A stretch of 64,000 nucleotides of DNA from Chloroflexota bacterium. GTDB lineage: Bacteria > Chloroflexota > Anaerolineae > B4-G1 > DUEL01. The notes beneath the pieces were generated by a model. The model was given only the letters and a program-made list of their open reading frames with translations, searched no databases and had not been told where the DNA came from. Shown in pieces: positions 26,749-60,278 of this stretch (positions are counted from its first letter, which is position 1; each line of letters starts with the position of its first letter). The DNA is taken from positions 124,001 to 188,000 of the forward strand of contig JADBJJ010000032.1 of NCBI GenBank assembly GCA_014874475.1, given 5' to 3'. The position numbers and the translations under genes were made by a program.

Positions 26749-26770
26749 CTCCAGCGGCAATACTGCCGGG

Positions 26771-26925
26771 TGTGCCGGGTTCGGCATCGCCGCGCCCGAG
26801 AGGTAGAGCCGTCGTCTCTCCCAGAAGGAAACATCCCGGCAGAAGCAGACCGTCCAGCGATACGGACGGAATAGAACGGGCCGGGGTGGGCTCAATCAAG
26901 CCCGCTCCGGCCCGTTTTTTGGGGG
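26771..26925 (+). repeat. 155-bp duplicated element, copy 1 (structured, ends in terminator)
   Basis: Identical base for base to 39536-39690, and weaker similarity continues for about 90 bases past the end of each copy. It can fold: TGCCGGG (26773-26779) with CCCGGCA (26835-26841), GAGAG with CTCTC inside, a CCGTCC/GGACGG hairpin (26850-26869), then a terminator. It may be a small RNA gene or an interspersed repeat. I do not recognise a known RNA family, and no protein is convincing on either strand. Confidence 0.85.
26876..26920 (+). terminator. Strong intrinsic terminator in the duplicated element, copy 1
   Basis: ACGGGCCGG pairs with CCGGCCCGT around an inner GGGCT/AGCCC stem, followed by TTTTTT. 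It would terminate plus-strand transcripts coming from the tRNA pair. Confidence 0.85.
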
Positions 26926-27063
26926 ACTGGGGGCCCAGCGCCCCGTCAGAGAAGCCCGCTCCCCCGAACCATCTCCGCTTTATCCCTCTCCTCCCTCCTC
27001 TTATCCGGCTGCAGAATCTCCCCCATTTTACCATACTTGAAACAATCACTTCTTTAACCCCAC

Positions 27064-39525: not shown

Positions 39526-39535
39526 CCTCGCCGGC

Positions 39536-39690
39536 TGTGCCGGGTTCGGCATCGCCGCGCCCGAGAGGTAGAGCCGTCGTCTCTCCCAGAAGGAAACATC
39601 CCGGCAGAAGCAGACCGTCCAGCGATACGGACGGAATAGAACGGGCCGGGGTGGGCTCAATCAAGCCCGCTCCGGCCCGTTTTTTGGGGG
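39536..39690 (+). repeat. 155-bp duplicated element, copy 2
   Basis: Same sequence as 26771-26925, including the TGCCGGG/CCCGGCA stem and the GGGCC terminator with T6 (T-run 39680-39685). Similarity continues with small changes to about 39786. It sits between the nucleotidyltransferase remnant and the decayed end of the CRISPR array, 12,765 bases from copy 1. No promoter for it is obvious. Confidence 0.85.
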
Positions 39691-39808
39691 CTGGGGGCAC
39701 GGCAGCCCCGTCAGAGAGGCCCGCTCCCCCGAATCATCTCCGCTCTATCCCTCTTTTTCCCTCTCCTCCCTCCTCTTATCCGGCCGCGGAGTCAATGGGA
39801 GGTCAAAG

Positions 39809-40247
39809 GTCTTATGCCCTATCGGGTTGAGTGCTCTTTCAGATATCAGGGGTTCGCTCCAACGCGCTGGTGAACATTGTCGTTATCCAGCGCGTCTACG
39901 AAGCGGTCTTAATATCCTATCGGGCTTCGGGGAGTTCGCTCGTGGTGTTCCTGGACTGGCAGGAAGTCCTTGGGGCGCTTATGTCTTAATGCCCTGTCGG
40001 GCATTGGGAGTTTGCTACCGACCGAGTAAGGTTTGTGCCTATGGTGAGGTAAGTCTTAATGCCCTGTCGGGCATTGGGAGTTTGCTACTAACAATAGATG
40101 TGAAAAACCTTTACGGGGAACAAGCAAAAATAGGTCTTAATGCCCTGTCGGGCATTGGGAGTTTGCTACCCGGGATTGCCGCGGTGGTTCTTGACGAGAG
40201 CGTGGAACCAGTCTTAATGCCCTGTCGGGCATTGGGGAGTTTGCTAC
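39809..40247 (-). CRISPR. Trailer-end part of the CRISPR array (two decayed and four good repeats)
   Basis: Good repeats start at 39983, 40053, 40134 and 40211; the last has one extra G (37 nt). Two decayed copies precede them at 39809 (GTCTTATGCCCTATCGGG) and 39906 (GTCTTAATATCCTATCGGG). Decay at this end, away from the cas genes, marks it as the old, leader-distal end. Confidence 0.9.
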
Positions 40248-40430
40248 GTAGCCGTAGCAGCCGCAACGGTCCGGTATCACACAGACAAATGTGCATCCTT
40301 CCGGACACCCTGACCCTCCTCCGTCGCTTTGCGCTACTGCTACTGCTCCGGGTGACCGCGTCACTGCGAGTGGCAGCACAAGAATCAGGCACAAAGCAGG
40401 CAGAAGCAGAAACCAGAATCCTCTGCGCAT
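40248..40430 (-). pseudogene. Secreted Cys-rich protein gene cut by the CRISPR repeat
   Basis: The ATG at 40430 opens a signal peptide (MRRGFWFLLLPALCLILVLP) followed by a mature part with GSGCPEGCTFVCVIP and CGCYGYV. The frame then runs into the CRISPR repeat at 40247, so the 3' part is lost. About 61 residues remain. Family unknown. It lies 15 bases downstream of the next gene, in the same apparent operon. Confidence 0.6.
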
Positions 40431-40445
40431 ACATACCCTCTACTC

Positions 40446-41237
40446 TTACGGGAGAGATACTCCGTGGACGTACGCCAAGGCGCGGTACTTCGCGCCGTCC
40501 CACTCCAGCATCCACCGCGAGATGCCGCGATCGCCACGGGCAGTTTCCACTTCCTGATTATCCGATAGGCGATGGAATATAGTAGTCACTTGACCACTCT
40601 CGTAGAAAATCCATACATAGACCCCTGCGGGGTCTTGATAGACGGCTTTCACCTTGTCTGGACTGAACCCGGCGGGATCCCAAACAGACCAGACGGATTT
40701 TTCCTCAGCCAATCGGCGGACAATGGTACTCCAAGTCACCTCGGCATACTGCCCTGGGACGAAGTACTCCTCCCGCTCATTGTAGCCGGGCTTGCGCTCG
40801 AATGGGTTACCATCTACATTGGACCAGAAGCGGTAGATTTCGGCGAAGTCCCGCAGGGCAATTTCACGGGTGCATCTGGCCGCCTCAATCTTCCACACCC
40901 CATCACGGCTGGGCAGGGTATCACCCATCGGAGCCGCCTCCGGCGCAGTACACTCCTCCGGCGCGGCCGTGGGAAGTTCCGCCGGCATCGGCGTCGGCGT
41001 GGGCGTGGGCGTGGGAGTGGGCGTGGGCGTGGGCGTCGGTGCTTCGGCGGTTGCCGTCGGGGTCAGGGCCGGGACCAGCGACTGCTCCGGCTCACCTTCC
41101 GGCAACGGAGTGAAGGTCAGCACCAAGACCAGTAGGCCCAGCGCCAAGAGCAGGCTCAGACCCACAAGCCCGGCCCACACTTTCAGCCGCGGACTCTTTG
41201 GTGGTTTCTTCGAGGCTGACGAGTATTCCGTGTACAT
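40446..41237 (-). CDS. Membrane-anchored protein with TP-repeat linker, unknown function
   Basis: 263 residues; the ATG follows AAGGAG. A short cytoplasmic N-terminus, one TM helix (about 22-43, GLVGLSLLLALGLLVLVLTF), a Thr-Pro repeat linker (about 60-85, PTPTPTPTPTP) encoded by GGGCGTGG-type tandem DNA, and an extracytoplasmic domain with two cysteines (EECTAPEAA and AARCTREIAL). The C-terminal domain has GVYVWIFYESGQVTTIFH and SRWMLEWDGAKYRAL. I do not recognise the family. It is intact, between CRISPR repeats on both sides. Confidence 0.75.
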   Translation of the reverse strand: MYTEYSSASKKPPKSPRLKVWAGLVGLSLLLALGLLVLVLTFTPLPEGEPEQSLVPALTPTATAEAPTPTPTPTPTPTPTPTPMPAELPTAAPEECTAPEAAPMGDTLPSRDGVWKIEAARCTREIALRDFAEIYRFWSNVDGNPFERKPGYNEREEYFVPGQYAEVTWSTIVRRLAEEKSVWSVWDPAGFSPDKVKAVYQDPAGVYVWIFYESGQVTTIFHRLSDNQEVETARGDRGISRWMLEWDGAKYRALAYVHGVSLP

Positions 41238-41265
41238 TTCTCCTTGTTCTCCTTGTTCGTTTTTG

Positions 41266-41399
41266 TCAAGGCTGCCGCCTCACCCGCATCTCGCTCGTGC
41301 CAGCGGCGCGGATGACGAGCGGGATGCGGGTCAGGCCGGGGATGAGCGGCCGGACGGTGGCCTGCATCCGTACCTCCACCGTCCGGTTGTTGTTATTGA
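41266..41399 (-). pseudogene. C-terminal gene fragment (TadE-like?) cut by the CRISPR repeat
   Basis: The minus strand encodes about 43 residues to a stop at 41266: NNNNRTVEVRMQATVRPLIP, then GLTRIPLVIRAAGTSEMRVR. The upstream part would lie beyond 41400 but there the repeat begins. The pattern is like the C-terminus of TadE-type pilus proteins, tentatively. Its stop lies 28 bases before the start of the membrane-anchored protein gene. Confidence 0.5.
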
Positions 41400-43503
41400 G
41401 TCTTAATGCCCTGTCGGGCATTGGGAGTTTGCTACGCAACGTAAACTGCATTGTGCCAATCCCATTCAGAATCGTCTTAATGCCCTGTCGGGCATTGGGA
41501 GTTTGCTACGTATATCAACAGCAGGTTGATAGCCGCGGCGGAAGATCGGCTCGGTCTTAATGCCCTGTCGGGCATTGGGAGTTTGCTACAAAGCCTCCCG
41601 AGCTACTTAGACCTCCCCGAAGAGTTGTGGGCCTTAATGCCCTGTCGGGCATTGGGAGTTTGCTACTCTGGTTGTCAGTCCGCGGGATACCAGTGGCCGT
41701 CCATTGCGCCTTAATGCCCTGTCGGGCATTGGGAGTTTGCTACCGGCGCGACAGATCGCCGAAGAACGCGGCACAAAATGGTACGTCTTAATGCCCTGTC
41801 GGGCATTGGGAGTTTGCTACCGAAGGAAAGGGCCAGGATGCTTTTGCCCCCATTGCAGTTAGTCTTAATGCCCTGTCGGGCATTGGGAGTTTGCTACTTC
41901 TGCTCTTGCTGGGATCTGACACTACAGGAGGCCAGTGAGAGTCTTAATGCCCTGTCGGGCATTGGGAGTTTGCTACCCAGAAAGTGTTCGGGCGGAGGAC
42001 GGGACGAAACCTCCAAGTCTTAATGCCCTGTCGGGCATTGGGAGTTTGCTACGGAGGATGCGTACCTCTGTGCCCAGTGCTCCCAAGAAATTGATGTCTT
42101 AATGCCCTGTCGGGCATTGGGAGTTTGCTACGGGCAAGGGCAAGAGCGCACATGCGGAGCCCCACTGTTTCGTCTTAATGCCCTGTCGGGCATTGGGAGT
42201 TTGCTACGTATGATATACTTGTCAGCGTGAGCGATATTCATTATATGTCTTAATGCCCTGTCGGGCATTGGGAGTTTGCTACCCAATCCCGATTCCGATG
42301 CTGGCACTCCCCGGGGTGATGGGACTCTTAATGCCCTGTCGGGCATTGGGAGTTTGCTACCCACCCTCAGTCACTACTGGGATACCCTCATCCGGGATAA
42401 CGTCTTAATGCCCTGTCGGGCATTGGGAGTTTGCTACGATCCCCCTTAAGAGGGGGACCTTCTACCGCAACGTGGGGGTCTTAATGCCCTGTCGGGCATT
42501 GGGAGTTTGCTACCCCTGGATCCTCCCCTGTGTTAGGTGTGGGGAACCCGTCGATAGGTCTTAATGCCCTGTCGGGCATTGGGAGTTTGCTACCGGACAA
42601 TTAAACTACTGACCGAGGATGGCAGGAAAGTCCGGAAGGTCTTAATGCCCTGTCGGGCATTGGGAGTTTGCTACCGAACGAATTGACAGCAGGACCTTTC
42701 GTATCAGAAATGGGTCTTAATGCCCTGTCGGGCATTGGGAGTTTGCTACCGGCCTCGCTGGAAGGGCCCGTCATCTACAGTCCCCGTGAGTCTTAATGCC
42801 CTGTCGGGCATTGGGAGTTTGCTACCCATTTTCAAGTCCCTGGCAGACCTCGGAATAGCTTTACGTCTTAATGCCCTGTCGGGCATTGGGAGTTTGCTAC
42901 GATCGTCGCGATCGTTGCATTCGCGACGATCATCTGGGTCTTAATGCCCTGTCGGGCATTGGGAGTTTGCTACCTAGGGAAGCAAGCTGGGGGCTCCTCG
43001 CCCCCTCAGAAGTCTTAATGCCCTGTCGGGCATTGGGAGTTTGCTACCCATTGTCTGGCGGGATCAGGCATTGCAAAAGGCAAGGTCCGTCTTAATGCCC
43101 TGTCGGGCATTGGGAGTTTGCTACCGTAATGTGGAGGTTCGCTTCAGGTCTTCGGGGGCAGGCACGTCTTAATGCCCTGTCGGGCATTGGGAGTTTGCTA
43201 CATTCTTCGCCCAACGAAAGGAGGAACAATGTTCGCTGCTTTACGTCTTAATGCCCTGTCGGGCATTGGGAGTTTGCTACGCTAGACGCTGCCGAATTGC
43301 ACAACTGGTTCACCCTGAGCGTCTTAATGCCCTGTCGGGCATTGGGAGTTTGCTACCTAGCTGTTACTGTTGGTGCTAGCGCTGGCGATATGACTAAGTC
43401 TTAATGCCCTGTCGGGCATTGGGAGTTTGCTACGGAGAGCCCGTTGACAGGCGGATCTCCGCAATAGGTCTTAATGCCCTGTCGGGCATTGGGAGTTTGC
43501 TAC

Positions 43504-45071
43504 GTACCACCTGCGTGGCGTCGCAGGCTTGCTGGTGAAAGCAAGTCTTAATGCCCTGTCGGGCATTGGGAGTTTGCTACAATACATAGAAGCCGCCCGA
43601 AAAATGGCTGGGCAGGAGAGTCTTAATGCCCTGTCGGGCATTGGGAGTTTGCTACGTACTTGTCCCGATTTCAGGGAGCGGGGGGGGCCCTGCAAGTCTT
43701 AATGCCCTGTCGGGCATTGGGAGTTTGCTACTCACGTCAGTGATCTCCCTGATAATGAAGTAACTGGAATAGGTCTTAATGCCCTGTCGGGCATTGGGAG
43801 TTTGCTACTTATAGCAAGGGGGTCAGAAATGACACAGGAGAACTATTAGTCTTAATGCCCTGTCGGGCATTGGGAGTTTGCTACCCATAGTGCCGGCTGA
43901 GTTTGCTGTACAAATAGACGATAGGTCTTAATGCCCTGTCGGGCATTGGGAGTTTGCTACGTCCGCGACCGCGTGCGTCCGCGTCCGCGACCACGTGCGG
44001 GTCTTAATGCCCTGTCGGGCATTGGGAGTTTGCTACCGCACGTCGATTTGGGTCCAGTTTGAGGCCTGGGTAACGTCTTAATGCCCTGTCGGGCATTGGG
44101 AGTTTGCTACGAACGACGACTGGCCTCTTTCTGATGCCGTGAGCGAAACGTCTTAATGCCCTGTCGGGCATTGGGAGTTTGCTACTCATCGGTGAGACGT
44201 CCAACAACGGGTATCGGGAACAGTTTGCGTCTTAATGCCCTGTCGGGCATTGGGAGTTTGCTACTGAAATGTTGCGGGTGTGGCGAACCGCCGGTGACGA
44301 AAAGGTCTTAATGCCCTGTCGGGCATTGGGAGTTTGCTACTGATAAAGATGTTTTAGGAGAGCCGGTAATCATTGTGTTGCCGGGTCTTAATGCCCTGTC
44401 GGGCATTGGGAGTTTGCTACTCAAACGCCCCTCAAACGCGAAGTAGAGACAGTAATAGTCTTAATGCCCTGTCGGGCATTGGGAGTTTGCTACTTTACAA
44501 ACTGGAAGTGGGAAGAGGTTGTGTTAAGCGGAATAGGTCTTAATGCCCTGTCGGGCATTGGGAGTTTGCTACCGCATTACTACCTGTTGCCCAAGCAACC
44601 TTGCCCATTCAGTCTTAATGCCCTGTCGGGCATTGGGAGTTTGCTACCCGCACTGGTGAGCGGATGACCGAGCGGGACGTGCAGCGGGTGGTCTTAATGC
44701 CCTGTCGGGCATTGGGAGTTTGCTACGTACCACCTGCGTGGCGTCGCAGGCTTGCTGGTGAAAGCAAGTCTTAATGCCCTGTCGGGCATTGGGAGTTTGC
44801 TACAATACATAGAAGCCGCCCGAAAAATGGCTGGGCAGGAGAGTCTTAATGCCCTGTCGGGCATTGGGAGTTTGCTACGTACTTGTCCCGATTTCAGGGA
44901 GCGGGGGGGGCCCTGCAAGTCTTAATGCCCTGTCGGGCATTGGGAGTTTGCTACTCACGTCAGTGATCTCCCTGATAATGAAGTAACTGGAATAGGTCTT
45001 AATGCCCTGTCGGGCATTGGGAGTTTGCTACTTATAGCAAGGGGGTCAGAAATGACACAGGAGAACTATTA
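43504..45071. repeat. Duplicated block of five spacers
   Basis: Spacers at 43504-43848 (first one beginning GTACCACCTGCGTGGCG) recur in the same order at 44727-45071, 1,223 bases away, with the repeats between them. About 11 other spacers lie between the two copies. Confidence 0.9.
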
Positions 45072-45570
45072 GTCTTAATGCCCTGTCGGGCATTGGGAGT
45101 TTGCTACCTCACTTCCGGGCGAGAAGAGGGCAAGGCAGGGACAAGTTGCGTCTTAATGCCCTGTCGGGCATTGGGAGTTTGCTACCTCTGACAAAACCGG
45201 CAACCGGCGGAAAGGGGAGAAGTCCGTCTTAATGCCCTGTCGGGCATTGGGAGTTTGCTACGCACTTCCGCCACGCTCGCATTACTGAAGACCCCATTTT
45301 TGGTCTTAATGCCCTGTCGGGCATTGGGAGTTTGCTACTTGCCCCCTGCGCGCTATGTGGGGAGACGGAGGATGCGTACGTCTTAATGCCCTGTCGGACA
45401 TTGGGAGTTTGCTACTTCAGACTGCCAGGGCGTCAACGCAGGGAATGGCTGCTGCAGTCTTAATGCCCTGTCGGGCATTGGGAGTTTGCTACGAACCAGG
45501 CAACGCCCTTTATGGGTGGCGGTCGGGAGGGAAAAGCTTAATGCCCTGTCGGGCATTGGGAGTTTGCTAC

Positions 45571-46612
45571 CCGCGACATACGTCCCAGGTTGGTTGGAGT
45601 ACTAAGTAAGTCTTAATGCCCTGTCGGGCATTGGGAGTTTGCTACCGACCTCCTCGCACCTAACTCGAGCGAGTATGCCATAGGATGGGTCTTAATGCCC
45701 TGTCGGGCATTGGGAGTTTGCTACTTACTGGTTTTACCTCCGCGCTGTTGTCCCGGCGCTCGAAGTCTTAATGCCCTGTCGGGCATTGGGAGTTTGCTAC
45801 CAAAGGGTTACGTGTGGCATTCGCCACGCGGAACCATGGGTCTTAATGCCCTGTCGGGCATTGGGAGTTTGCTACGTATGTTATATACCTGAGAGTGGTG
45901 ATACCGAGCCTGAGAAGTCTTAATGCCCTGTCGGGCATTGGGAGTTTGCTACGGGTCCCACCGTGTGCGCTCTTTGCGGCGGGGCTGGAGAGTCTTAATG
46001 CCCTGTCGGGCATTGGGAGTTTGCTACCCAATTGTTGAAGAGGCCGTAGAGGGAGTTGACAAGGGCGTTTTAAGTCTTAATGCCCTGTCGGGCATTGGGA
46101 GTTTGCTACCCGCGACATACGTCCCAGGTTGGTTGGAGTACTAAGTAAGTCTTAATGCCCTGTCGGGCATTGGGAGTTTGCTACCGACCTCCTCGCACCT
46201 AACTCGAGCGAGTATGCCATAGGATGGGTCTTAATGCCCTGTCGGGCATTGGGAGTTTGCTACTTACTGGTTTTACCTCCGCGCTGTTGTCCCGGCGCTC
46301 GAAGTCTTAATGCCCTGTCGGGCATTGGGAGTTTGCTACCAAAGGGTTACGTGTGGCATTCGCCACGCGGAACCATGGGTCTTAATGCCCTGTCGGGCAT
46401 TGGGAGTTTGCTACGTATGTTATATACCTGAGAGTGGTGATACCGAGCCTGAGAAGTCTTAATGCCCTGTCGGGCATTGGGAGTTTGCTACGGGTCCCAC
46501 CGTGTGCGCTCTTTGCGGCGGGGCTGGAGAGTCTTAATGCCCTGTCGGGCATTGGGAGTTTGCTACCCAATTGTTGAAGAGGCCGTAGAGGGAGTTGACA
46601 AGGGCGTTTTAA
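45571..46612. repeat. Tandem duplication of seven spacers
   Basis: The block 45571-46073 (starting CCGCGACATACGTCCC) is repeated at 46110-46612, a tandem unit of 539 bases including repeats. Confidence 0.9.
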
Positions 46613-47409
46613 GTCTTAATGCCCTGTCGGGCATTGGGAGTTTGCTACTCTAAGTGGCGCTGCTTGATCTGCGGTGCCACTTCAGCATGGGTCTTAATGC
46701 CCTGTCGGGCATTGGGAGTTTGCTACCTTAAATTGACGCCACAGGAGTGGCAGACCGCGGCCATTCTGTCTTAATGCCCTGTCGGGCATTGGGAGTTTGC
46801 TACTAACCGGCCCAGGGCCGGTGTGGTTGTACCTCGCGGTAGGTCTTAATGCCCTGTCGGGCATTGGGAGTTTGCTACTCACGCGTGGGACTACGCGAAT
46901 GAGCAGTGGCGCTGTCTATTCGGTCTTAATGCCCTGTCGGGCATTGGGAGTTTGCTACCGGACCACAGGGCGGTGGCGATTGCTGCATCCAGGTACGTCT
47001 TAATGCCCTGTCGGGCATTGGGAGTTTGCTACCGAGAGAGATTTGGAGTGGACCCCAACTACTGCTTGTACCCGTTGAAGGTCTTAATGCCCTGTCGGGC
47101 ATTGGGAGTTTGCTACCCACTGTGCACTGCCTGTGTCTTAGGCCTGGGGGGTCCGTCTTAATGCCCTGTCGGGCATTGGGAGTTTGCTACATATATTATG
47201 AGGGCCTGTCAGGAGGATGATGAGAAAGTCTTAATGCCCTGTCGGGCATTGGGAGTTTGCTACCCCCCACAATCGCAGGAAGCCCGCAGATGTCCGTAGG
47301 GTCTTAATGCCCTGTCGGGCATTGGGAGTTTGCTACTGGCTGCACGTCATATCCCAGTCCCCGTCTCTGTTGCGTCTTAATGCCCTGTCGGGCATTGGGA
47401 GTTTGCTAC

Positions 47410-47598
47410 CTGCCGCGTTCTCACCATTACTGTCCATGAACAGGACCCGTCTTAATGCCCTGTCGGGCATTGGGAGTTTGCTACCTGCCGCGTTCTCACC
47501 ATTACTGTCCATGAACAGGACCCGTCTTAATGCCCTGTCGGGCATTGGGAGTTTGCTACCTGCCGCGTTCTCACCATTACTGTCCATGAACAGGACCC
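47410..47598. repeat. Spacer present three times in tandem
   Basis: The 39-nt spacer starting CTGCCGCGTTCTCACC occurs at 47410, 47485 and 47560, a 75-base unit. Confidence 0.95.
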
Positions 47599-48011
47599 GT
47601 CTTAATGCCCTGTCGGGCATTGGGAGTTTGCTACCCTTCTGTGACGAACTGGCCATTGCTGCCAACAGCAAACGTCTTAATGCCCTGTCGGGCATTGGGA
47701 GTTTGCTACGCAAGTCTCCCAAGTTACCTGGACCTCCCCGAGGAGTTGGTCTTAATGCCCTGTCGGGCATTGGGAGTTTGCTACCTGCGACTGTCAGGGT
47801 TGGGCGCGGCACTGGAACGGTGGTAAGGTCTTAATGCCCTGTCGGGCATTGGGAGTTTGCTACGCCCCTCATTAGAGGGGCCGAAGAGCATGTACAAAAA
47901 AGGTCTTAATGCCCTGTCGGGCATTGGGAGTTTGCTACGGAGAACCTTGTTTTCCACCATATCACGCAAGAAAGGGTCTTAATGCCCTGTCGGGCATTGG
48001 GAGTTTGCTAC

Positions 48012-48281
48012 TTCTTAAGAAAGGTGGAAGCAGTAGAGGGAGAAGACCCTGTGCGTCTTAATGCCCTGTCGGGCATTGGGAGTTTGCTACCCCAGCCTGC
48101 GCGTATGTGGTAGTCTGGGCCGACTAAGGTCTTAATGCCCTGTCGGGCATTGGGAGTTTGCTACTTCTTAAGAAAGGTGGAAGCAGTAGAGGGAGAAGAC
48201 CCTGTGCGTCTTAATGCCCTGTCGGGCATTGGGAGTTTGCTACCCCAGCCTGCGCGTATGTGGTAGTCTGGGCCGACTAAG
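48012..48281. repeat. Tandem duplication of two spacers
   Basis: Spacers starting TTCTTAAGAAAGG and CCCAGCCTGCGCG at 48012-48128 recur at 48165-48281, a 153-base unit. Confidence 0.95.
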
Positions 48282-49916
48282 GTCTTAATGCCCTGTCGGG
48301 CATTGGGAGTTTGCTACTTCTCGGTTGAGTTTGGTGGCGATCTTCGGATCGTCATTTACGTCTTAATGCCCTGTCGGGCATTGGGAGTTTGCTACATGGC
48401 CTGTGGCCTATGGTCTGGCCTGTGGCCTATGGCCTGGGTCTTAATGCCCTGTCGGGCATTGGGAGTTTGCTACTTAGCACGGCACGGCACGGCACGGCAT
48501 TGGCATTAGCACGTCTTAATGCCCTGTCGGGCATTGGGAGTTTGCTACCACTTGAGAGTGTCCTCCGTCGAGAAAACAGGCGTAGGAAGGTCTTAATGCC
48601 CTGTCGGGCATTGGGAGTTTGCTACCATTAGCACGGCACGGCACGGCACGGCACGGCATTGGCATTAGGGTCTTAATGCCCTGTCGGGCATTGGGAGTTT
48701 GCTACCTAAGTATCGCCGCAGCTCTCGTAGCCGCGGAGATTTATGTCTTAATGCCCTGTCGGGCATTGGGAGTTTGCTACCCCCATATTGGGGATAATCC
48801 ACGACTATGCCGGTCACGTTGAGTCTTAATGCCCTGTCGGGCATTGGGAGTTTGCTACCAGATTAGGAGGGAACAGCGAAGACGGTAACAATTACTGAGT
48901 CTTAATGCCCTGTCGGGCATTGGGAGTTTGCTACTGACGCAGAGCCGCTTTATTCAGCGACGGGAAGACCGGGTCTTAATGCCCTGTCGGGCATTGGGAG
49001 TTTGCTACGAAGAGTCCCTCAAGGCGGAGGCGTTCCGGATTGTACAGTCTTAATGCCCTGTCGGGCATTGGGAGTTTGCTACGTGCCGGCGATGCGGGAG
49101 GTCGGGGGACGCGATTGACTACGTCTTAATGCCCTGTCGGGCATTGGGAGTTTGCTACCAAAACTGTTCCGTATGGCTATAAGGGCCCCTATAGGGACCG
49201 TCTTAATGCCCTGTCGGGCATTGGGAGTTTGCTACAATTTGTGGAGAAAATCCGGGGCGTCGTCCGGCAGGGCATACATGTCTTAATGCCCTGTCGGGCA
49301 TTGGGAGTTTGCTACCCACCAGGGGGAAGAGCAGGCCGGGAAGGGCGATGCTGAGTCTTAATGCCCTGTCGGGCATTGGGAGTTTGCTACATCATCACCG
49401 TATTAGCGAAGGAAATATGCGAAGATAAAGGGTCTTAATGCCCTGTCGGGCATTGGGAGTTTGCTACGAATGATGCCATTGGTGGGCACCGCGATAGATG
49501 AAGGTCTTAATGCCCTGTCGGGCATTGGGAGTTTGCTACGAAATGAAAAACTTTGGAGAGGTCGTAAGGGATATCTACGTCTTAATGCCCTGTCGGGCAT
49601 TGGGAGTTTGCTACGCTTTCCGTGATTGGCGTAGTACTGACAGCGGAAATATTGTCTTAATGCCCTGTCGGGCATTGGGAGTTTGCTACGATGTTTTGAG
49701 GGATGTAGAGAGCGATCCGCAAGTGTTCGTCTTAATGCCCTGTCGGGCATTGGGAGTTTGCTACAAACGGTACCGGGTGTGAAGCGGGCAAAGCGGGGGC
49801 AAAGTCTTAATGCCCTGTCGGGCATTGGGAGTTTGCTACTTTAGGGTGCGGGGAAAATGTGCTGTCGGGGTATATCAATAGTCTTAATGCCCTGTCGGGC
49901 ATTGGGAGTTTGCTAC

Positions 49917-50232: not shown

Positions 50233-50550
50233 CTACACAATGTAGACCTCCGGCACCTCCACCAGCGGCGCAGTCTGCCCCAACATCTGTATCTCCCGGG
50301 CACAGAGGGAACAGAGCCGGTAAATCCGTACCCGATCCTCCCCTCCCATCCGCCGGGCCAGCCCCCGGCGCATTTTCTCCGCCTGAGAAGCCGTCAGCAC
50401 GCATTCCCAGACGCTGTATTGAACCCGCTCCCCGTACCCGCTCAGGAAACGGGCCACCCTGTTGCGACGCCGGTCGTCCGAAATGTCGTACGTCACCACA
50501 TACCGGCGCCGCTCCTCTTTCCGTTCCCTCTCCGCAAAATCTCCCTCCAT
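50233..50550 (-). CDS. cas2: CRISPR adaptation protein Cas2
   Basis: 105 residues from the ATG reading MEGDFAER; the longer frame runs back into cas1. Ferredoxin-like Cas2: RRYVVTYDISDDRRRNRVAR with the conserved Asp after the first strand, GYGERVQYSVWECVL, and RVRIYRLCSLCAREIQMLG. Cas2 forms the core of the Cas1-Cas2 integrase that inserts new spacers at the leader-proximal repeat. It starts eight bases after the cas1 stop and is the last gene of the operon before the array. Confidence 0.95.
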   Translation of the reverse strand: MEGDFAERERKEERRRYVVTYDISDDRRRNRVARFLSGYGERVQYSVWECVLTASQAEKMRRGLARRMGGEDRVRIYRLCSLCAREIQMLGQTAPLVEVPEVYIV

Positions 50551-50558
50551 CGTCCACC

Positions 50559-51575
50559 CTACCGAACCTGAAAGGGGCGAAAGGTCTCGCCCGTCTGAAC
50601 GGCGTGGGCCAACTGCCGGACCTCCACCTCCAGGCAGCGACGGTAATTCATCCGCTCCCCCGTCTGGGGATGGGTCAACTCCAGATTCAGCCGTCCCTCC
50701 CATTCCCGAATGAAACGAGTCCTCCCCTCCTCGCCCAGACGTATCGGGTACGGCCCCTCAGGGCTTTCCTCAAAGTGATCCGGACGGAGAATGCCGTTAT
50801 TCAGGCAGCGCAGGACCATACTATCCACCAGAATGGGGCGGAAGGGCTCTATCAGGTCCAGGGCCAGGCTGGGGCGACGGTATTCGGCCCGATGGAGGAA
50901 TCCCAGATACGGGTCCAGCCCCACTGTCCACACAGCCCACTCCATCTGATGGGTCAGAAGGGTGTAGCCGAAACTCAGAAGCGCGTTGACGGGGTCCGGA
51001 GGCGGGCGGCGGGCCCGCTTCTCAAAGCGCCAGCCGGGAACGGTGATGAGATGGCGGAAGACGGAGAAGTAAACGGCGGAGCCCCGTCCCTCCAGACCGT
51101 TGAGGGAGTTCAAAGTGCGGGCTCGCCCCACTTGAGCGATGAGGTCGGAGAGACGGTCGGCAGCGGCCGAGAGGGCCGCCGCGGTTTGCGGCGCGTCGGT
51201 GCGGCGGGCGTAGCGCCGCAGAAGGGTACGCAGGTTGTGCAGTTTGGCCGTCCCCAGAGCCCGCGCCACCCCCAGGGCCCAGTCCGGGTCGTTGACCCGG
51301 GCGTACTGGCGGAGCCGGAGGAGGCCGTTGCCCCGCTCCGGCCCCACCAGCCGCCCCTTGTACCGCCCCTCCACCGTCAGAAAGACCACCTCTATCCCCT
51401 GCGCTAGCAGGTAGGAAAGGGCGGGCGGAGTGAGGGAAACGTTGCCCAGAAGGACAACCTGGGAGATATGCGCCGTCGGGACGCTGGCGAGAATCTGGTC
51501 GTCCTTCTCCACGACCAGGCGACGGGCCCGGCAGGCCAGCCGGGCTCCTTGGGTAGAGACGTACAGCGCTGTCAT
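50559..51575 (-). CDS. cas1: CRISPR integrase Cas1
   Basis: 338 residues from the ATG reading MTALYVSTQ. N-terminal beta domain (ASVPTAHISQVVLLGNVSLT) and the helical catalytic domain. The metal-binding residues are recognisable as the Glu of LNGLEGRGSAVYF, the His of YLGFLHRAEYRRPSLALDL and the Asp of ALDLIEPFRPILVD. No reverse transcriptase fusion is present. It integrates prespacers at the leader end. It belongs to the cas operon and is separated from csx15 by about 100 bases. Confidence 0.96.
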   Translation of the reverse strand: MTALYVSTQGARLACRARRLVVEKDDQILASVPTAHISQVVLLGNVSLTPPALSYLLAQGIEVVFLTVEGRYKGRLVGPERGNGLLRLRQYARVNDPDWALGVARALGTAKLHNLRTLLRRYARRTDAPQTAAALSAAADRLSDLIAQVGRARTLNSLNGLEGRGSAVYFSVFRHLITVPGWRFEKRARRPPPDPVNALLSFGYTLLTHQMEWAVWTVGLDPYLGFLHRAEYRRPSLALDLIEPFRPILVDSMVLRCLNNGILRPDHFEESPEGPYPIRLGEEGRTRFIREWEGRLNLELTHPQTGERMNYRRCLEVEVRQLAHAVQTGETFRPFQVR

Positions 51576-51676
51576 ACACCCCCCCGGATATTCGGTTGTT
51601 AAGGTGCGATGGCGGATTCGGCCCCGGGGAACGCGGAAGAATCGGCGATCCCCTGGCGTTCTCCGCCCCCCGGCGG

Positions 51677-52060
51677 TCAAACCGACCGGCGGACACGGGC
51701 GGAATCCCGCTGCGCTTGCAGGTTCATCACTTCAGCAATCTCATAGCGCGGCGGGATGCCCTCCACAGGCCGAAGACGGACACATGGGGGGAAGTAGCCC
51801 ATGCGTCCATGCAGTTCGGCTATTAGAAGGGCAGCGGCAAAACTGAGCGACGGCGGCACGACCACCAGCGGCAGAGTCTGCCACTCGGCAGGAGATAGCC
51901 CGGCCCGGTCGGCCAGTTCCACCACCTGGGGGCCGAATGGCTTGCCGGTGTCCAGGTGGGTGGGGATTTCCACCACCCGCTCCACCGACTGGCCAGTCAG
52001 CGCATGTAGTTGGGCTATGTGGTCGGGAGTGAGCGGATGAGAGAAGTTCAGGACGATCAT
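51677..52060 (-). CDS. csx15: CRISPR-associated protein Csx15
   Basis: 127 residues. MIVLNFSHPLTPDHIAQLHA, then LTGQSVERVVEIPTHLD, AEWQTLPLVVVPPSLSFAAA, LIAELHGRMGYFPPCVRLRP: the Csx15 family pattern, found only beside type III CRISPR loci. Csx15 has been proposed to bind or remove cyclic oligoadenylate; I am not certain how well this is established. Its ATG overlaps the stop of the CARF-HEPN gene (ATGA), so effector and Csx15 are made together, which fits a dampening role. Confidence 0.85.
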   Translation of the reverse strand: MIVLNFSHPLTPDHIAQLHALTGQSVERVVEIPTHLDTGKPFGPQVVELADRAGLSPAEWQTLPLVVVPPSLSFAAALLIAELHGRMGYFPPCVRLRPVEGIPPRYEIAEVMNLQAQRDSARVRRSV

Positions 52061-53283
52061 CGGGCCTCTTCCAGTCCCCACCTCCGGGCCAGTTCCTTCA
52101 GGGCGGGGAGAATCTCCGTCTGCGTCTTCTGGCTCAACTTACGGGCATCCATCGGATCAGACCTCATCCCGGCGTGGTCCAAGTCGTTGCGGACCGCGGT
52201 CAAATGGTTCCACAGGTCGCTGAGGCACTCCGCCTCTGGCCGCTCCATCAGTTCCCGGCCCACTTCGTTCAATTCACTGGGAGAAGGGCGTCTCCGTTTG
52301 ACCCAGCAGAGGCCCGAAAGCCCCTGTTCTATCCTCTCCCGTTCTTTCTTTTTCAGGACAAAGGCTCCCATCTGCTGCCAGCCGACGGCAGTGACCACCC
52401 ATTCCCGGGCCAGGGTGACGGCCTGGATAATCCGATCGCGTTCGGCGTACCAGCAGATCAGGCCCAGTTGGCGCTGCAGGCTCTCCCGGACGTTCTGGAG
52501 GGGCTCGGTGAGGGCGTGGCGGCCGTATTCCTTTTCTATTCGCCCGATCATCACTTCAAAGGGACGGGCCCAGTAGGGGATGTCCTGGCTGGCTTTTTTG
52601 AGGACGTTGCTCAATCGGCCTGCTTTCTCCATGACCTCCAGGGGGCGACAAAGCATAATGGCGCGGGAGAAGTCCTCCAGGTCTCCTCCGGCGTTCTTCA
52701 GCGCGCCGGAGCCCCGGGCCTCTCCTTGCTGGGCCAGGAGGCGGGCCAGATACCGGGCGTCGCCGGTGTAGATGAACTGATTGGTCGCTGCCAGCCAGTC
52801 CAGCAGAGAGACGAAAGGGGTCAGGTCAAAGACGGGGCGAGGGTCCGGGTCTGTCCGGGGCCGGGCCTCGTATGCGCCGTAGACGACGGCATGGATGTGG
52901 ACCCGGCGAGCAGCCCGCAGGTATGCCGCCGCCAGAAAGACCAGGAAGGGGATAGACCGGAAGGAGTGGGTGATATCAAAGATGACCTGCTCCCCTTCCT
53001 CCACCTTCTCCGTCAGCACGGAGAAGATTTGCCAGAGTTCCTCCTCGGACTGGCCGTCCGGTATGGGGACGACCTGGAGCCGCTCCGACGGTATCCGTTC
53101 CTTCAACCGCTGGAGGTTAGGATGAGACTGAACGGCCGCCGTGGCGAAGAGGTAGAGAGTCTCCAGGTCCGGGAAAAAGCAAAACAGCGCCTGGGGGAAC
53201 AGGTTGGTCGTGCACTTCTGTCCCTTATAGACATAGGTGACGGTCTGGTAGTCACTTGTCCCCAGAAAAGAGAGCCCTTTCAT
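52057..53283 (-). CDS. csx2: CARF-HEPN ribonuclease of the Csx1/Csx2 (TM1812) family
   Basis: 408 residues. The N-terminal CARF domain: KGLSFLGTSDYQTVTYVYKG, then FPQALFCFFPDLETLYLFAT, IPDGQSEEELWQIFSVLTEK and VIFDITHSFRSIPFLVFLAA, which form the family's cyclic oligoadenylate pocket. The helical C-terminus has the HEPN RNase motif R-x4-H in TAVRNDLDHAG (about residue 365). Activated by cOA from Cas10, it would cut RNA non-specifically. No Csm6 is present, so this is the likely main effector. Confidence 0.88.
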   Translation of the reverse strand: MKGLSFLGTSDYQTVTYVYKGQKCTTNLFPQALFCFFPDLETLYLFATAAVQSHPNLQRLKERIPSERLQVVPIPDGQSEEELWQIFSVLTEKVEEGEQVIFDITHSFRSIPFLVFLAAAYLRAARRVHIHAVVYGAYEARPRTDPDPRPVFDLTPFVSLLDWLAATNQFIYTGDARYLARLLAQQGEARGSGALKNAGGDLEDFSRAIMLCRPLEVMEKAGRLSNVLKKASQDIPYWARPFEVMIGRIEKEYGRHALTEPLQNVRESLQRQLGLICWYAERDRIIQAVTLAREWVVTAVGWQQMGAFVLKKKERERIEQGLSGLCWVKRRRPSPSELNEVGRELMERPEAECLSDLWNHLTAVRNDLDHAGMRSDPMDARKLSQKTQTEILPALKELARRWGLEEAR

Positions 53284-53295
53284 CGCTGCTCACCC

Positions 53296-54396
53296 CTAAC
53301 GGCCTTCTCCCTCCAGTTCTACTAGAACCCATCCCAGGGGATACTCGGGGAGGACCTGATTCTGGGAGCGGCGGGCGGAGAGGCGGCGGCTGCGCGGGAA
53401 GGGACGGGCCAGATTGGGCTGCCAGACCCGACCGGCCCTGGGGGGCTTTCCCAGTTGGTAGCGGCGGCGGAGCGTATCCTGCTCTTGTTGGGAAAGCCAG
53501 AAGCCGACGCTCTTCGCCGTCCAGCCAGCGCCCCAGCCGATCTGGAGAAGAAAGGCGCGCGGGCCCAGAGGGGTTCGAGCCAACGGGCTATAGAGAGATA
53601 CGACTTTCTGAAAGGACTGATGGCGCTTATACCATTCCATCTCCCGTTCAATCCGGGCCCGGCTGATCTTGTTGGCGATCTGGGCCAGATCGGTCAGCCA
53701 CTGGCGCCGGTCGGTGAAGCGGAGGGTGCTGGCGGCCTCGGAGAAGAGATACTCGTCCAGAGACAGGGTGGTGTGGAAGACAGTATCCGGCTTCACCGCT
53801 TCCAGAACGATGGGAGCGCCGGGTTTGCTATCCGCCGTAAAGACCTGGGCGTTCACCAGCATCAGCGGCAAGGGGGAAAGCGGCAGAGGGTCACTATCGG
53901 CAATTCGCAGCGCCCGCATCAGGTCCTGGTTGGGGTTTGGGCCGAAGACGGCGCGCTCCCAGGGCTCTCCGGCCCGCTCCCGCCGCTCCCCCAGCGCCTT
54001 CAGGTCGGGCTTCCAGTAGCCAGAGCGCAGGGCATGGATCATCAGGACAGTGCGCAGCGCGCCCTTGAGGGAGGATCCGGGCAGGTAAGGGCGGCCGTAC
54101 GGGTCCTTCAACTGCTCCCGCACCTGGCTCTCGGTCACTTCACCCTTCAGGACATACCGAACGAAAGGGGACTCTTCACTCAGTTCGTGATCCTGAACCA
54201 GTTGGCCAGGGGGAACCATCAGGAATTCCCAGGGCTCTCCTGGGCGGGCGCGGTCGTAGGCGTCAACCAGGATGGCATCCTGATTCAGGACCCAGGTCCG
54301 GCCCTGGCTGGTCTTGAAGTCGTAATCTCGCAAGAGCACCCGACCGGTCCCGATATGGAGCGGCGAAATCAGAGAGACTTTCAGCCGGTATATCAT
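53296..54396 (-). CDS. csm5: Type III-A effector subunit Csm5
   Basis: 366 residues from the ATG reading MIYRLKVSL. RAMP fold: SLISPLHIGTGRVLLRDYDF, the PYGRPYLPGSSLKGALRTVL glycine-rich loop, and a C-terminal LPEYPLGWVLVELE. Csm5 caps the 3' side of the crRNA in the Csm complex and helps recruit maturation nucleases. It overlaps csm4 by four bases. Longer than many Csm5 proteins only if the 42 upstream residues were counted; they are not family-like. Confidence 0.9.
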   Translation of the reverse strand: MIYRLKVSLISPLHIGTGRVLLRDYDFKTSQGRTWVLNQDAILVDAYDRARPGEPWEFLMVPPGQLVQDHELSEESPFVRYVLKGEVTESQVREQLKDPYGRPYLPGSSLKGALRTVLMIHALRSGYWKPDLKALGERRERAGEPWERAVFGPNPNQDLMRALRIADSDPLPLSPLPLMLVNAQVFTADSKPGAPIVLEAVKPDTVFHTTLSLDEYLFSEAASTLRFTDRRQWLTDLAQIANKISRARIEREMEWYKRHQSFQKVVSLYSPLARTPLGPRAFLLQIGWGAGWTAKSVGFWLSQQEQDTLRRRYQLGKPPRAGRVWQPNLARPFPRSRRLSARRSQNQVLPEYPLGWVLVELEGEGR

Positions 54397-55409
54397 AGCA
54401 GCGCCTCCTGGGCAACGGGCACTGGAAAAGCCAGGCCGTACCGTAGCACGGGGCGGTCGCCGAACACCCCTACGCCCTCCGGCTTCAGGTCGGCAACGGT
54501 TCCCAGCGAAGAGCCGTCCCATCGCAAGACGCTCCCCTCACAGACCATCCGCACCTGTTTGCGTCGCCAGGCGTGGCCGGCGTCGTCCTGACACCACCCC
54601 CCTATCCAGACCAGTTTATAGGCGGCATGCTCGGATTGAAGGGCAGCGGCGACCTCGGCCTGGCTGGCCGGAAGGTAGCGGGAAAGGGTCACAGCGTAGC
54701 CGGAGGGGGCGGGCCAGGCCGGCAGGGCGGTCTCCCCGATGGTGAACGTGAACGCGCCGTGTCCGATGGAGCGCAGGCCGCCCAACCCAGCGTCGGCCAG
54801 ATAGTTGAGCGCGCGTTCCAGGCGGGCGAAAGCGCCCGAAGCGACGGGCTCCACCACGAACCACAGGCCGCAACCGGGCCCGAAGGTCAACCGTCCGCTG
54901 AAGAAGAGGTTAGACGCATTGCTGGCGCGGTCAAGCGCCACACGAGGCACCGGCGGATACGTAGACCAGAACTGGGTCCACTCTGCAAGCCCTTTGGGCG
55001 GAGGGGGGAGAAGGGGCATGTCCTCCGGGTGGAACCAGATATCGCCGATAAAGTGCTCCAGTCGGGCCAGGGAGGTGATGTCATCCCCCTGGAGCAGGCG
55101 GACAAAGATGCGCTCAGAGCACCAGGCGAACCGGGAGAGTTTCTTGCCCAACTCTTCCCGCTGTTTCTGACCGACGCGGATCCGCACGAAGGGGCGCGGG
55201 TAAAGGCGAAGACTTCCCACGCGCGGAAAGGCCGAGGTCAGGCGCAGGGGCGGAGGGACGAAAGGGCCGGGCTCCCCCGCGACGCTCCAGGCGTAGACGA
55301 AGGCGGCGTAAAGGGTATCGCTGGGGATATAGGGCAACGTCTCCTCCCGGCCCACGCCCAGTTCCCCCACATGAAACGAGCCGCGCGGATACAGGTCCAC
55401 CGCAATCAT
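54393..55409 (-). CDS. csm4: Type III-A effector subunit Csm4
   Basis: 338 residues from the ATG with AGGAGG upstream. Cas5-like RAMP: MIAVDLYPRGSFHVGELG, YIPSDTLYAAFVYAW, the SNLFFSGRLTFGPGCGLWFV segment and the Gly-rich GGLRSIGHGAFTFTIGE. Csm4 binds the 5' repeat tag of the crRNA and contacts Cas10. Order csm2-csm3-csm4-csm5 is the standard type III-A order. Confidence 0.92.
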   Translation of the reverse strand: MIAVDLYPRGSFHVGELGVGREETLPYIPSDTLYAAFVYAWSVAGEPGPFVPPPLRLTSAFPRVGSLRLYPRPFVRIRVGQKQREELGKKLSRFAWCSERIFVRLLQGDDITSLARLEHFIGDIWFHPEDMPLLPPPPKGLAEWTQFWSTYPPVPRVALDRASNASNLFFSGRLTFGPGCGLWFVVEPVASGAFARLERALNYLADAGLGGLRSIGHGAFTFTIGETALPAWPAPSGYAVTLSRYLPASQAEVAAALQSEHAAYKLVWIGGWCQDDAGHAWRRKQVRMVCEGSVLRWDGSSLGTVADLKPEGVGVFGDRPVLRYGLAFPVPVAQEALL

Positions 55410-55425
55410 CGGCGGCCTCCTTAAT

Positions 55426-56244
55426 TTATTTTTCGACGTCAAGGGAGTCCTGGACCCATCTCAGTATCTCATCTTTTGCTCCTATGAGATCCGCCAAAGT
55501 GGAGTATGGCCCCATCTCTCCCAGCACCTCGTACACCTTGACCCGCTTGATGGTCAGCCTCAGTTCCTCAAAGCGGACTTTGCCGGAGCCCCGGCTCCCC
55601 TGCCCGCCCAGGTAGTCATCCTCCAGCAACTGCATCGCGGTGAAGAGATGGCCCAGGAGGACCACATCGTTGCCCAGGTAGAGGTTCAAGACCAGTTCCA
55701 TCGGCGCAAAGACCGTATCAGCCGGGACGCGCTCCAACGGGCGGGGGACGGCCGCGCTGGTCACCCGGTCAATCGCGGCCTCCCATTTGACCTCGGTGTA
55801 GGGCATATCGGTGCGGACGGATAAGAGCCTCCGGGCACTGCTCTGTTCACCCTTCCGCTCATCGTCTTCCAGCGGCACGTCGCGGACGATCAATCGGGTG
55901 GGCGCCGGGACGTTAAATTTGACCTCGCCGGGGACGCCGAAGAGAGGGTTGACCCAGTATTCCTCATACTGCTTCTCGTCCTCGGCGACATGGATGTTTA
56001 CATTGCCGATGGAGCGGTTTTGCGGTGCGCCGGTCACCCTTTCGGCCAGGGAGCGCATCTTCCCCTTGAGGGAGGAGCCGGGGATGTAGGGCCGTCCGGT
56101 CACCGGATCACGGATGACGGGATTGTCCACGTTGCCAATGGCCAGAGCGCCGGGCGAGCCGCCGATATGCAGTCCCGTCACAGTGCGGATCTGTCCGGTG
56201 ATGAAAACTCGTCCGATCAGAGTCAGAGTCTTCTCCTGGTTCAT
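55426..56244 (-). CDS. csm3: Type III-A backbone subunit and target-RNA nuclease Csm3
   Basis: 272 residues; AGGAGG precedes the ATG. RAMP fold with TGLHIGGSPGALAIGNVDNP, the PYIPGSSLKGKMRSLAERV loop, YTEVKWEAAIDRVTSAAVPR and DYLGGQGSRGSGKVRFEEL. The catalytic Asp of Csm3 (Asp33 in S. thermophilus) corresponds to Asp40 in GNVDNP and is kept, so 6-nt interval cleavage of target RNA is expected. Multiple copies form the backbone along the crRNA. Confidence 0.96.
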   Translation of the reverse strand: MNQEKTLTLIGRVFITGQIRTVTGLHIGGSPGALAIGNVDNPVIRDPVTGRPYIPGSSLKGKMRSLAERVTGAPQNRSIGNVNIHVAEDEKQYEEYWVNPLFGVPGEVKFNVPAPTRLIVRDVPLEDDERKGEQSSARRLLSVRTDMPYTEVKWEAAIDRVTSAAVPRPLERVPADTVFAPMELVLNLYLGNDVVLLGHLFTAMQLLEDDYLGGQGSRGSGKVRFEELRLTIKRVKVYEVLGEMGPYSTLADLIGAKDEILRWVQDSLDVEK

Positions 56245-56254
56245 GACTTGCCTC

Positions 56255-56698
56255 CTAATTTCCGCCGTATGCCTTGTGGAAGGCCACGATGGCCTCAAAG
56301 AAGTCCATGAATCGGTTGAAGCGGGCCTCTCGCTCCTTCTCATCTTTGGCCTCGCTGACCATCGCTAGGGCAGGGTCAAGCACCTCACGCAGGTCTTCCA
56401 TACCCCTCCCTTCCCGTTCCCGTCTGGCGAAGTAACTCAGCTTGGGGCGCAGGAGGACGGCCTCCCGGTAGGCGCTTTCCGGGTCGATGGGCCAGCGCAG
56501 TTGAATCTGGCGCGCCGTGCCGAAGACGTTGCGAATCTGGCTGGTGGTCACCCGTTTTTGGGCAATGTCTGCGCCAATTTCTTGGGCATATTTCACCAGC
56601 GTCTCCGGGTCGCCCTCAACAATGATGCGCCTGATCGTCTTATCCCGCTCGGATGTGGGAGCCATTTGTTGTTTTTCTGAAGAACTCTGGCTGCGCAT
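56255..56698 (-). CDS. csm2: Type III-A small subunit Csm2 (Cas11)
   Basis: 147 residues; the ATG follows GAGGAGG. Helical Csm2 with VKYAQEIGADIAQKRVTTSQ, IRNVFGTARQIQLRWPIDPE and RPKLSYFARRERE, then a helix LDPALAMVSEAKDEKE and RFNRFMDFFEAIVAFHKAYG. Csm2 copies stack along the target strand opposite Csm3. About 150 bases lie between it and cas10 upstream; I see no gene there. Confidence 0.92.
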   Translation of the reverse strand: MRSQSSSEKQQMAPTSERDKTIRRIIVEGDPETLVKYAQEIGADIAQKRVTTSQIRNVFGTARQIQLRWPIDPESAYREAVLLRPKLSYFARREREGRGMEDLREVLDPALAMVSEAKDEKEREARFNRFMDFFEAIVAFHKAYGGN

Positions 56699-56847
56699 TT
56701 GGACCTCCTCTTGACACGAAACTCTAAGGATATTGTACCAGTGAATGAGCAATCCGGCTTCGGGTATCTCTTCGTGGTCCCCTCAGTTCCTCCTTGTGGC
56801 TGTGATCTCACCGGCTTCGGGCGGAACGGTCTTCCGACCGGATGGGG

Positions 56848-59307: not shown

Positions 59308-59447
59308 CACAACCTCCGGGTGGTTGAGTCGCGGGTCGCAAAGTGCAAGGGATTGGGCACTACCATCGCAACCCGGGCCTGAATCATGGGCCTGCACCGT
59401 GCAGAAACAGGCGTCCTTCGGTCAGAGAGCGCTTTTTCTCCGGTATC

Positions 59448-60278
59448 TCAATCCGTCCCCCCCACCCTCCTCCTCACCTGCCCCATTCCAGTCGTCGTCT
59501 GATATCCCACTCCGGCGTAGAAGGCGTAGTCCGTCAGCGCCCTCAGGATGCCCACCCAGTAGGGGTCAGCCCGGAGGACGGTATAGCGGCAATAGCCCAC
59601 AAAACCGATCTGCATCCCGCCCCCCTTCCCCGGCACCGAGCGGGTGGAGAGTTCGTACCGGCTGATGGCCAGGCACTCTTGAGCGAACCGCCGGACCTCC
59701 GGAGAGACCGTCGCCGGCGCAAACTCGTTCCACTTTTCCAGCAGGCTCCCGTAGACCAGGTCCGGCAGCGGCAGGGGGACGTTGCGCCCGCCGGAGTGAA
59801 AGGCGGTGGGGGAGAAGAACTCCAGTTCCAGGTGACGGGGCAACGGCTCCTCCGTCGGCAAGGTTTTCCTCAGCAGCGCCTGATACGTCGTCTGGCCCGC
59901 CCAGGGATGGACAGAAGGGTCCAGCGTCGCCCCCTGGAGGGCCAGCCAGGCCCCCTCTATCTCCACCACTCGGGGCGGCGCCTCGGCCCAGCGAATCAGA
60001 TGCTCCGAAATCTCCGCAGTCAGCCCGGTGTAGCGCAGAAAGAGGGGACGGCCCGGGACGACCACGGCCTTCAATTCCCCGTTCACCCGCTCCATACGCA
60101 CCCCCACCAGCGACGAGCAGGTGAAGGGGCGGCGTTCATCCGCGGCGTGCAACCGTTCGGCCAGGGCGGGGTCCCGTTCGGCCACCCCTTTCAGGAACAG
60201 AGCATGGCTGGCCCGTCCCAAATGCGGCGGCAAGACCGCCTCCTCCCCCTGAAACATCAGGACGAGACTGGTCAGCAT
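59448..60278 (-). CDS. cas6: crRNA-processing endoribonuclease Cas6
   Basis: 276 residues. Two ferredoxin-like halves; the C-terminal glycine-rich RNA-binding loop reads AGVGYQTTTGMGQVRRR. Earlier segments are LELEFFSPTAFHSGGRNVPL and KGGGMQIGFVGYCRYTVL. The early RASHALFLKGVAE could hold a catalytic His. It would cut the repeat at the base of the AATGCCC/GGGCATT hairpin, leaving the 8-nt ATTAAGAC tag. First gene of the minus-strand operon, with a candidate promoter at 60373-60400. Confidence 0.93.
   Translation of the reverse strand: MLTSLVLMFQGEEAVLPPHLGRASHALFLKGVAERDPALAERLHAADERRPFTCSSLVGVRMERVNGELKAVVVPGRPLFLRYTGLTAEISEHLIRWAEAPPRVVEIEGAWLALQGATLDPSVHPWAGQTTYQALLRKTLPTEEPLPRHLELEFFSPTAFHSGGRNVPLPLPDLVYGSLLEKWNEFAPATVSPEVRRFAQECLAISRYELSTRSVPGKGGGMQIGFVGYCRYTVLRADPYWVGILRALTDYAFYAGVGYQTTTGMGQVRRRVGGTD

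Follow-up and report, generated by a model that had tools for sequence, protein, structure and literature searches.

A putative kilobase pseudo-spacer from a Tad-type pilus cluster in the type III-A CRISPR array of a Chloroflexota bacterium

The geometry of Cas1-Cas2 is generally taken to determine how long a spacer is. The complex has been described as a ruler fixing both the length of the spacer and the leader-distal site (PMC13034035). The closest described counterpart of the locus reported here is SiL-E1 of Sulfolobus islandicus LAL14/1, a stretch of about 1.9 kb with five ORFs that lies precisely between two complete repeats (PMC3718332). In the published account, SiL-E1 is similar to pING1-like conjugative plasmids, with 82% identity overall, and its authors offered either faulty protospacer processing or homologous recombination as its origin, remarking that to their knowledge spacers so large had not been described before (PMC3718332). 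SiL-E1 was the one precedent found in the open-access literature searched, which yielded no kilobase pseudo-spacer from a bacterium. Here, a window of 64,000 nucleotides from a Chloroflexota bacterium (assembly GCA_014874475.1, contig JADBJJ010000032.1, positions 124,001 to 188,000) was analyzed, and all coordinates below without a locus prefix refer to this window. Its CRISPR array contains a 1152-nt segment that we tentatively interpret as a kilobase pseudo-spacer, stored where a spacer of about 40 nt would be normal.

The array extends from 39983 to 49916 on the minus strand and is read from the right, which is taken to be its leader side. A script that admits indels delimited 116 copies of a 36-nt repeat and 115 spacers, and 98 of the 114 spacers of normal length were unique. 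Two degenerate repeats stand at the left end, at 39825 and 39906, matching at 22 and 24 of 36 positions, respectively. To the right of the array, and all on the minus strand, are cas2 (50233-50571; Pfam PF09827, E 2.7e-22) and cas1 (50559-51680; Pfam PF01867, E 4.6e-97), followed by csx1/csm6 (CARF-HEPN; 52057-53283). The remaining genes are csm5 (53296-54522), csm4 (54393-55442), csm3 (55426-56343), csm2 (56255-56752), cas10/csm1 (56848-59397) and cas6 (59448-60278). A gene for a further CARF protein also lies on this side. With cas10/csm1, csm2-5 and cas6 present, the locus beside the array is of type III-A by its predicted gene content.

Several stretches of the array are duplicated (43467-45108, 45537-46650, 47373-47634 and 47975-48321; exact over up to 573 nt). 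The duplicated blocks comprise 5, 6 and 2 spacers, and a single spacer occurs in three copies. Within the array, the assembly resolves identical stretches of 573 nt (45537/46076) and 419 nt (43467/44690) as separate; their resolution would be hard with short reads and suggests that long reads were used. The IS copies checked for the same purpose were 95.5-97.9% identical rather than exact, and only one 23S gene was present. A 226-nt dispersed repeat with 96% identity was observed at 26765-26989 and at 39530-39754, the latter copy just beyond the old end of the array. Two spacers (48474-48512 and 48626-48669) consist mostly of GGCAC repeats and are of unusually low complexity.

The 1152-nt segment occupies 40248-41399 and lies without a gap between two repeats of the same direction, a trailer-side copy at 40211-40247 and a leader-side copy at 41400-41435. 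An earlier note on this DNA had described same-orientation repeats abutting both sides of a gene-bearing segment, and its coordinates proved to be exact. The leader-side repeat is canonical at 36 nt, and the trailer-side repeat measures 37 nt, with one extra G (GGGG for GGG) that is unique among the 116 repeats. The segment is the single outlier in spacer length as given by the script, with the other 114 of the 115 spacers falling at 34-48 nt. With the leader taken to be on the right, the 1152-nt unit would be one of the oldest in the array, as 111 spacers separate it from the leader side and three from the last good repeat. In comparisons of the first and last 60 nt of the segment, the longest exact direct match was only 7 nt, and no inverted repeats were found, the longest inverted match being 6 nt. 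A hidden degenerate repeat within the segment was also considered and rejected: the best match to the repeat covered 19 of 36 positions, a value that shuffles of the segment also attain (mean 18.2, maximum 22 of 36 positions in 200 shuffles).

Three genes, all on the minus strand, are carried by the segment. At its left edge is the 5' part of a gene for a Cys-rich secreted protein (40248-40430; 60 codons, start at 40430), cut at the repeat. A complete gene in the middle (40446-41237) encodes 263 amino acids with an N-terminal membrane segment, a TP-rich linker and a C-terminal domain. The right edge consists of the 3' end of a TadE/G-like minor pilin gene (41266-41399; 44 codons, stop at 41266), again cut at the repeat. 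For the C-terminal domain of the middle protein, no Pfam family was matched, a sequence search of the PDB returned chance-level matches only, and the predicted fold had a mean pLDDT of 36.

The earlier note had proposed a search of related genomes for an intact three-gene operon, and such an operon was found on an 18,429-nt contig (hereafter L048) from Candidatus Thermoflexus tengchongensis QQ.bin.20, where all three genes are complete and their order is conserved. In L048 they stand behind a Tad-type pilus cluster with genes for RcpC/CpaB, a ParA/MinD-type ATPase, a T2SSE-type ATPase, a T2SSF-type protein, TadE and TadE/G-like proteins. The best NCBIfam match of the T2SSE-type ATPase was the TadA family TIGR03819, with a score below the TIGR03819 cut-off. 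A further ATPase of 1,195 amino acids in the cluster belongs to NCBIfam NF033849, and its relative in another locus, L064, is weakly similar to HerA/CedD. A SWIM zinc-finger protein is encoded near the Tad cluster at L048:17310-18170, and no relaxase or integrase was identified among the proteins scanned from this 18.4-kb contig. The segment is collinear with L048 from about 14.4 to 15.39 kb, and tblastx blocks span the segment from nt 15 to nt 1152. The Cys-rich stub is identical at 24 of 35 residues to the product of L048:15233-16327, and the minor pilin stub at 29 of 44 residues to that of L048:14093-14524, a protein that matches Pfam Tad PF13400. The C-terminal domain of the middle protein is 54% identical to its L048 counterpart. 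The blastp match of the minor pilin stub starts with the first complete codon inside the right edge of the segment. Because homology in tblastx and blastp reaches both edges, no extra bases would be present at either junction, and because the homologous L048 cluster is intact, the two outer genes are seen to be cut exactly at the repeats. The earlier note's description of a whole middle gene between two outer genes cut at the repeat edge was thus borne out. By homology, the segment derives without interruption from one such Tad-type pilus cluster and ends within a gene at each repeat.

Neither the segment's own genome (3.0 Mb in 32 contigs) nor six congeners contained a second copy, and all other DNA matches in these genomes fell within the TP-linker stretch. 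A search of 60 relatives with the whole middle protein gave matches in 55, and those listed lay mostly in the low-complexity N-terminal and linker part; the search was therefore repeated with the C-terminal domain alone. The domain was then found in two of 396 genomes of the class, its own genome and the one that holds L048, and within the family of the latter it occurred in that one genome of nine. A two-row profile of the domain likewise retrieved two of 400 genomes of the phylum, its own and another with a weak match of 49 positions (G578). In searches for the source, genome contigs yielded one candidate, the Thermoflexus contig, while nothing was found in viral contigs or in phages and plasmids. 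The NF033849 ATPase is distributed patchily, in 39 of 396 class genomes, and the genome with the array has no copy. The cluster looks foreign and is probably of conjugation-like origin, and L048 would then represent a mobile element.

One ordinary spacer, at 47337-47373 (plus strand), has a match in the gene for the HerA-like ATPase (NF033849) of such Tad clusters. It shares 29 of 37 nt with the ATPase locus L063, against a maximum of 0.667 among 98 reversed control spacers, and its peptide WLHVISQSPSLL aligns with WLHIITQSPSLI of L064 at a score of 57 (control maximum, 51). The spacer at 43656-43695, also present at 44879, encodes TCPDFRERGGPC, which resembles TCPDFRQRGLGT of the L048 SWIM protein; this match was within the control range and was not counted. 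No further clear matches to the cluster loci were found among the spacers beyond that at 47337-47373. From this match, the array itself appears to point to the Tad cluster family as a target.

The ends of the 98 unique normal spacers were compared with those of the segment. At both ends, the first three bases inward favor 5'-(C/G/T)(T/C)A; the third base is A in 50 of the 98 spacers at each end, and no such bias was present in the interior columns printed. The preference is weak: the three positions used carry 0.08-0.56 bits each. This symmetric motif inside the spacers is a possible fingerprint of the Cas1-Cas2 of this locus. The segment begins with GTA and, read from its other end on the reverse strand, with TCA. 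Its summed end score lies at the 88th percentile when real spacers (98 unique) are scored leave-one-out. Random cut pairs within the segment reach the same score in 1.0% of cases. These scores suggest that the ends of the segment were probably chosen by the same machinery as those of ordinary spacers. Spacer-like ends would be expected alike from direct capture of the segment and from a segment bounded by two older spacers.

Of 96 scored unique spacers, 68 were purine-rich on the plus strand (two ties left out; binomial p 5e-5), which suggests that plus is usually the sense strand. The sense strand is on plus for the ATPase-matching spacer at 47337-47373, and also for a pair of spacers at 41590-41630 and 47710-47748 that differ at six positions in 37 nt and leave the peptide SLPSYLDLPEEL unchanged. 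The two spacers of this pair are of different age and derive from variants of one gene, as if an evolving element had been met repeatedly. Type III systems need a crRNA that is antisense to mRNA. With plus as the sense strand, crRNAs from the minus strand would be antisense to mRNA. The genes of the pseudo-spacer lie on the minus strand, in the direction of the crRNA, so its guide would be sense to the target mRNA. From this orientation, the pseudo-spacer is probably inert in immunity.

The likeliest route, to which we assign a probability of about 0.45 and which is favored over recombination and assembly artefact, is that a long fragment was captured by Cas1-Cas2. The complex would have taken a long linear fragment of the element, and each fragment end would have been joined to one side of the repeat that was then leader-proximal, probably through two distinct joining reactions (a complex at each end, or a half-site event completed by repair). 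Gap filling would have duplicated the repeat in the same way as with a normal spacer, and later acquisitions would have shifted the kilobase unit toward the old end of the array. A single event of this kind would account for where the segment lies, for its spacer-like ends and for its source. Its support consists of the exact repeat-to-repeat placement, the collinearity to both edges and the spacer-like ends, together with the cas1 and cas2 genes adjoining the array, the spacer at 47337-47373 that matches an ATPase gene of the same cluster family, and the patchy occurrence of that gene in the class. Abnormal integration of a very long fragment had been one of three origins listed in the earlier note, and it is the best supported of them, given a collinear foreign piece with spacer-type ends. 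The length ruler would nevertheless have been broken, as the segment measures 1152 nt and the other 114 spacers 34-48 nt, and the end preference is weak and would be seen equally if the edges of the segment were the far ends of two earlier spacers. The segment is also one case in one assembly, from an element presumed to be mobile, and one spacer only clearly matches the element family. No violation of the ruler would be needed if two adjacent same-strand spacers, S1 and S2, derived from sites 1.15 kb apart in the element, had recombined doubly with it so that element DNA replaced the repeat between them. We consider this unlikely, though with an appreciable chance. The array does recombine, as its duplicated blocks and the spacer present three times indicate, and homologous recombination with pre-existing spacer(s) is among the explanations proposed in the SiL-E1 account (PMC3718332). 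Acceptable inner boundaries for S1 and S2 exist 34-48 nt from the edges, yet they score no better than chance (0.40 and 0.84). Two neighboring spacers from one 1.15-kb stretch and one strand, both in the minority orientation, would be required, as would two crossovers in homologies of about 40 nt. Integration of a circular element by one crossover at a spacer was rejected: the same spacer would then remain at both ends, and the ends share only a 7-nt word.

A false join in assembly, also listed in the earlier note, would have the assembler exit the array at S1, cross a coexisting element and re-enter at S2. Such a mis-path would yield an identical picture, spacer-like outer ends included; the assembly is in 32 contigs, and the extra G of the left flanking repeat is of the type that homopolymer errors produce. 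Against it, the exact duplications of 573 and 419 nt were separated in the array, where mis-path joins would share only about 40 nt, and the assembly contains neither a second copy of the segment nor the ATPase of the cluster. An intact three-gene operon elsewhere in the same assembly, which the earlier note had named as counting against a genuine junction, was not found. The separated duplications and the lack of such an operon lower the case for a false join, which in the form of a mis-path is improbable. Far less probable still is an insertion as a mobile element, or recombination through an ectopic CRISPR repeat on the element or elsewhere in the genome. The cluster from which the segment derives does carry conjugation-like genes, but the segment has no transposase and no end repeats, in agreement with the earlier note's view that this is not a normal mobile element insertion. 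A transposon or IS insertion was rejected, there being no transposase, terminal inverted repeats or target duplication. As for an ectopic repeat, the 115 copies detected in the whole genome at up to three mismatches are on one strand only, and those listed are all in this array. The array repeat was found in none of 47 other genomes of the order and in no IMG/VR contig by exact match, and nothing resembling the repeat at up to 10 substitutions was found in 15 related cluster loci. The earlier note's suggestion that an ectopic repeat recombined with the array is thus left unsupported. Whether by capture through the Cas1-Cas2 integrase or by recombination between array and element, an added route for foreign genes into CRISPR loci would be indicated.

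Under the preferred reading of capture by Cas1-Cas2, bacterial type III-A adaptation may on rare occasions insert linear DNA of kilobase size, choosing both ends correctly and duplicating the repeat, and arrays could in this way gain whole foreign genes; as a general statement this is somewhat doubtful. If true, SiL-E1 and the present segment would both be products of a Cas1-Cas2 mode that is free of the length limit and recurs in cells exposed to conjugation-like elements. A pseudo-spacer located beside cas1 and cas2 makes it testable if the integrase acts on far-apart ends or if arrays undergo recombination with their target elements.

The segment can be set against three known kinds of array content. 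It is like an ordinary Cas1-Cas2 spacer in its repeat-spacer-repeat placement, in its end preference and in having a foreign source that is also targeted by the array, and unlike one in being about 28 times too long and in holding a whole gene. With the "long spacers" that arise from degenerate repeats, as described for CRISPRDetect (PMC4869251), it shares an unusual length and a position of the kind often seen near the old end of arrays, but it has no hidden repeat and consists of one collinear gene stretch. The closest likeness is to SiL-E1, which, as far as described, is also kilobase DNA exactly between complete repeats and collinear with its source to both edges. SiL-E1, reported as absent from other S. 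islandicus strains (PMC3718332), belongs to an archaeon and to array CRISPR_2 with 24-bp repeats, whereas the present segment belongs to a bacterium and a type III-A array and measures 1152 nt. The reported source of SiL-E1 is plasmids with 82% identity, and the source here is known only through a relative with about 54% identity. It was also possible to compare the 1152-nt segment with the end preference of ordinary spacers, which it fits. The segment joins a very rare kind known from SiL-E1, as a second natural case and from another domain of life.
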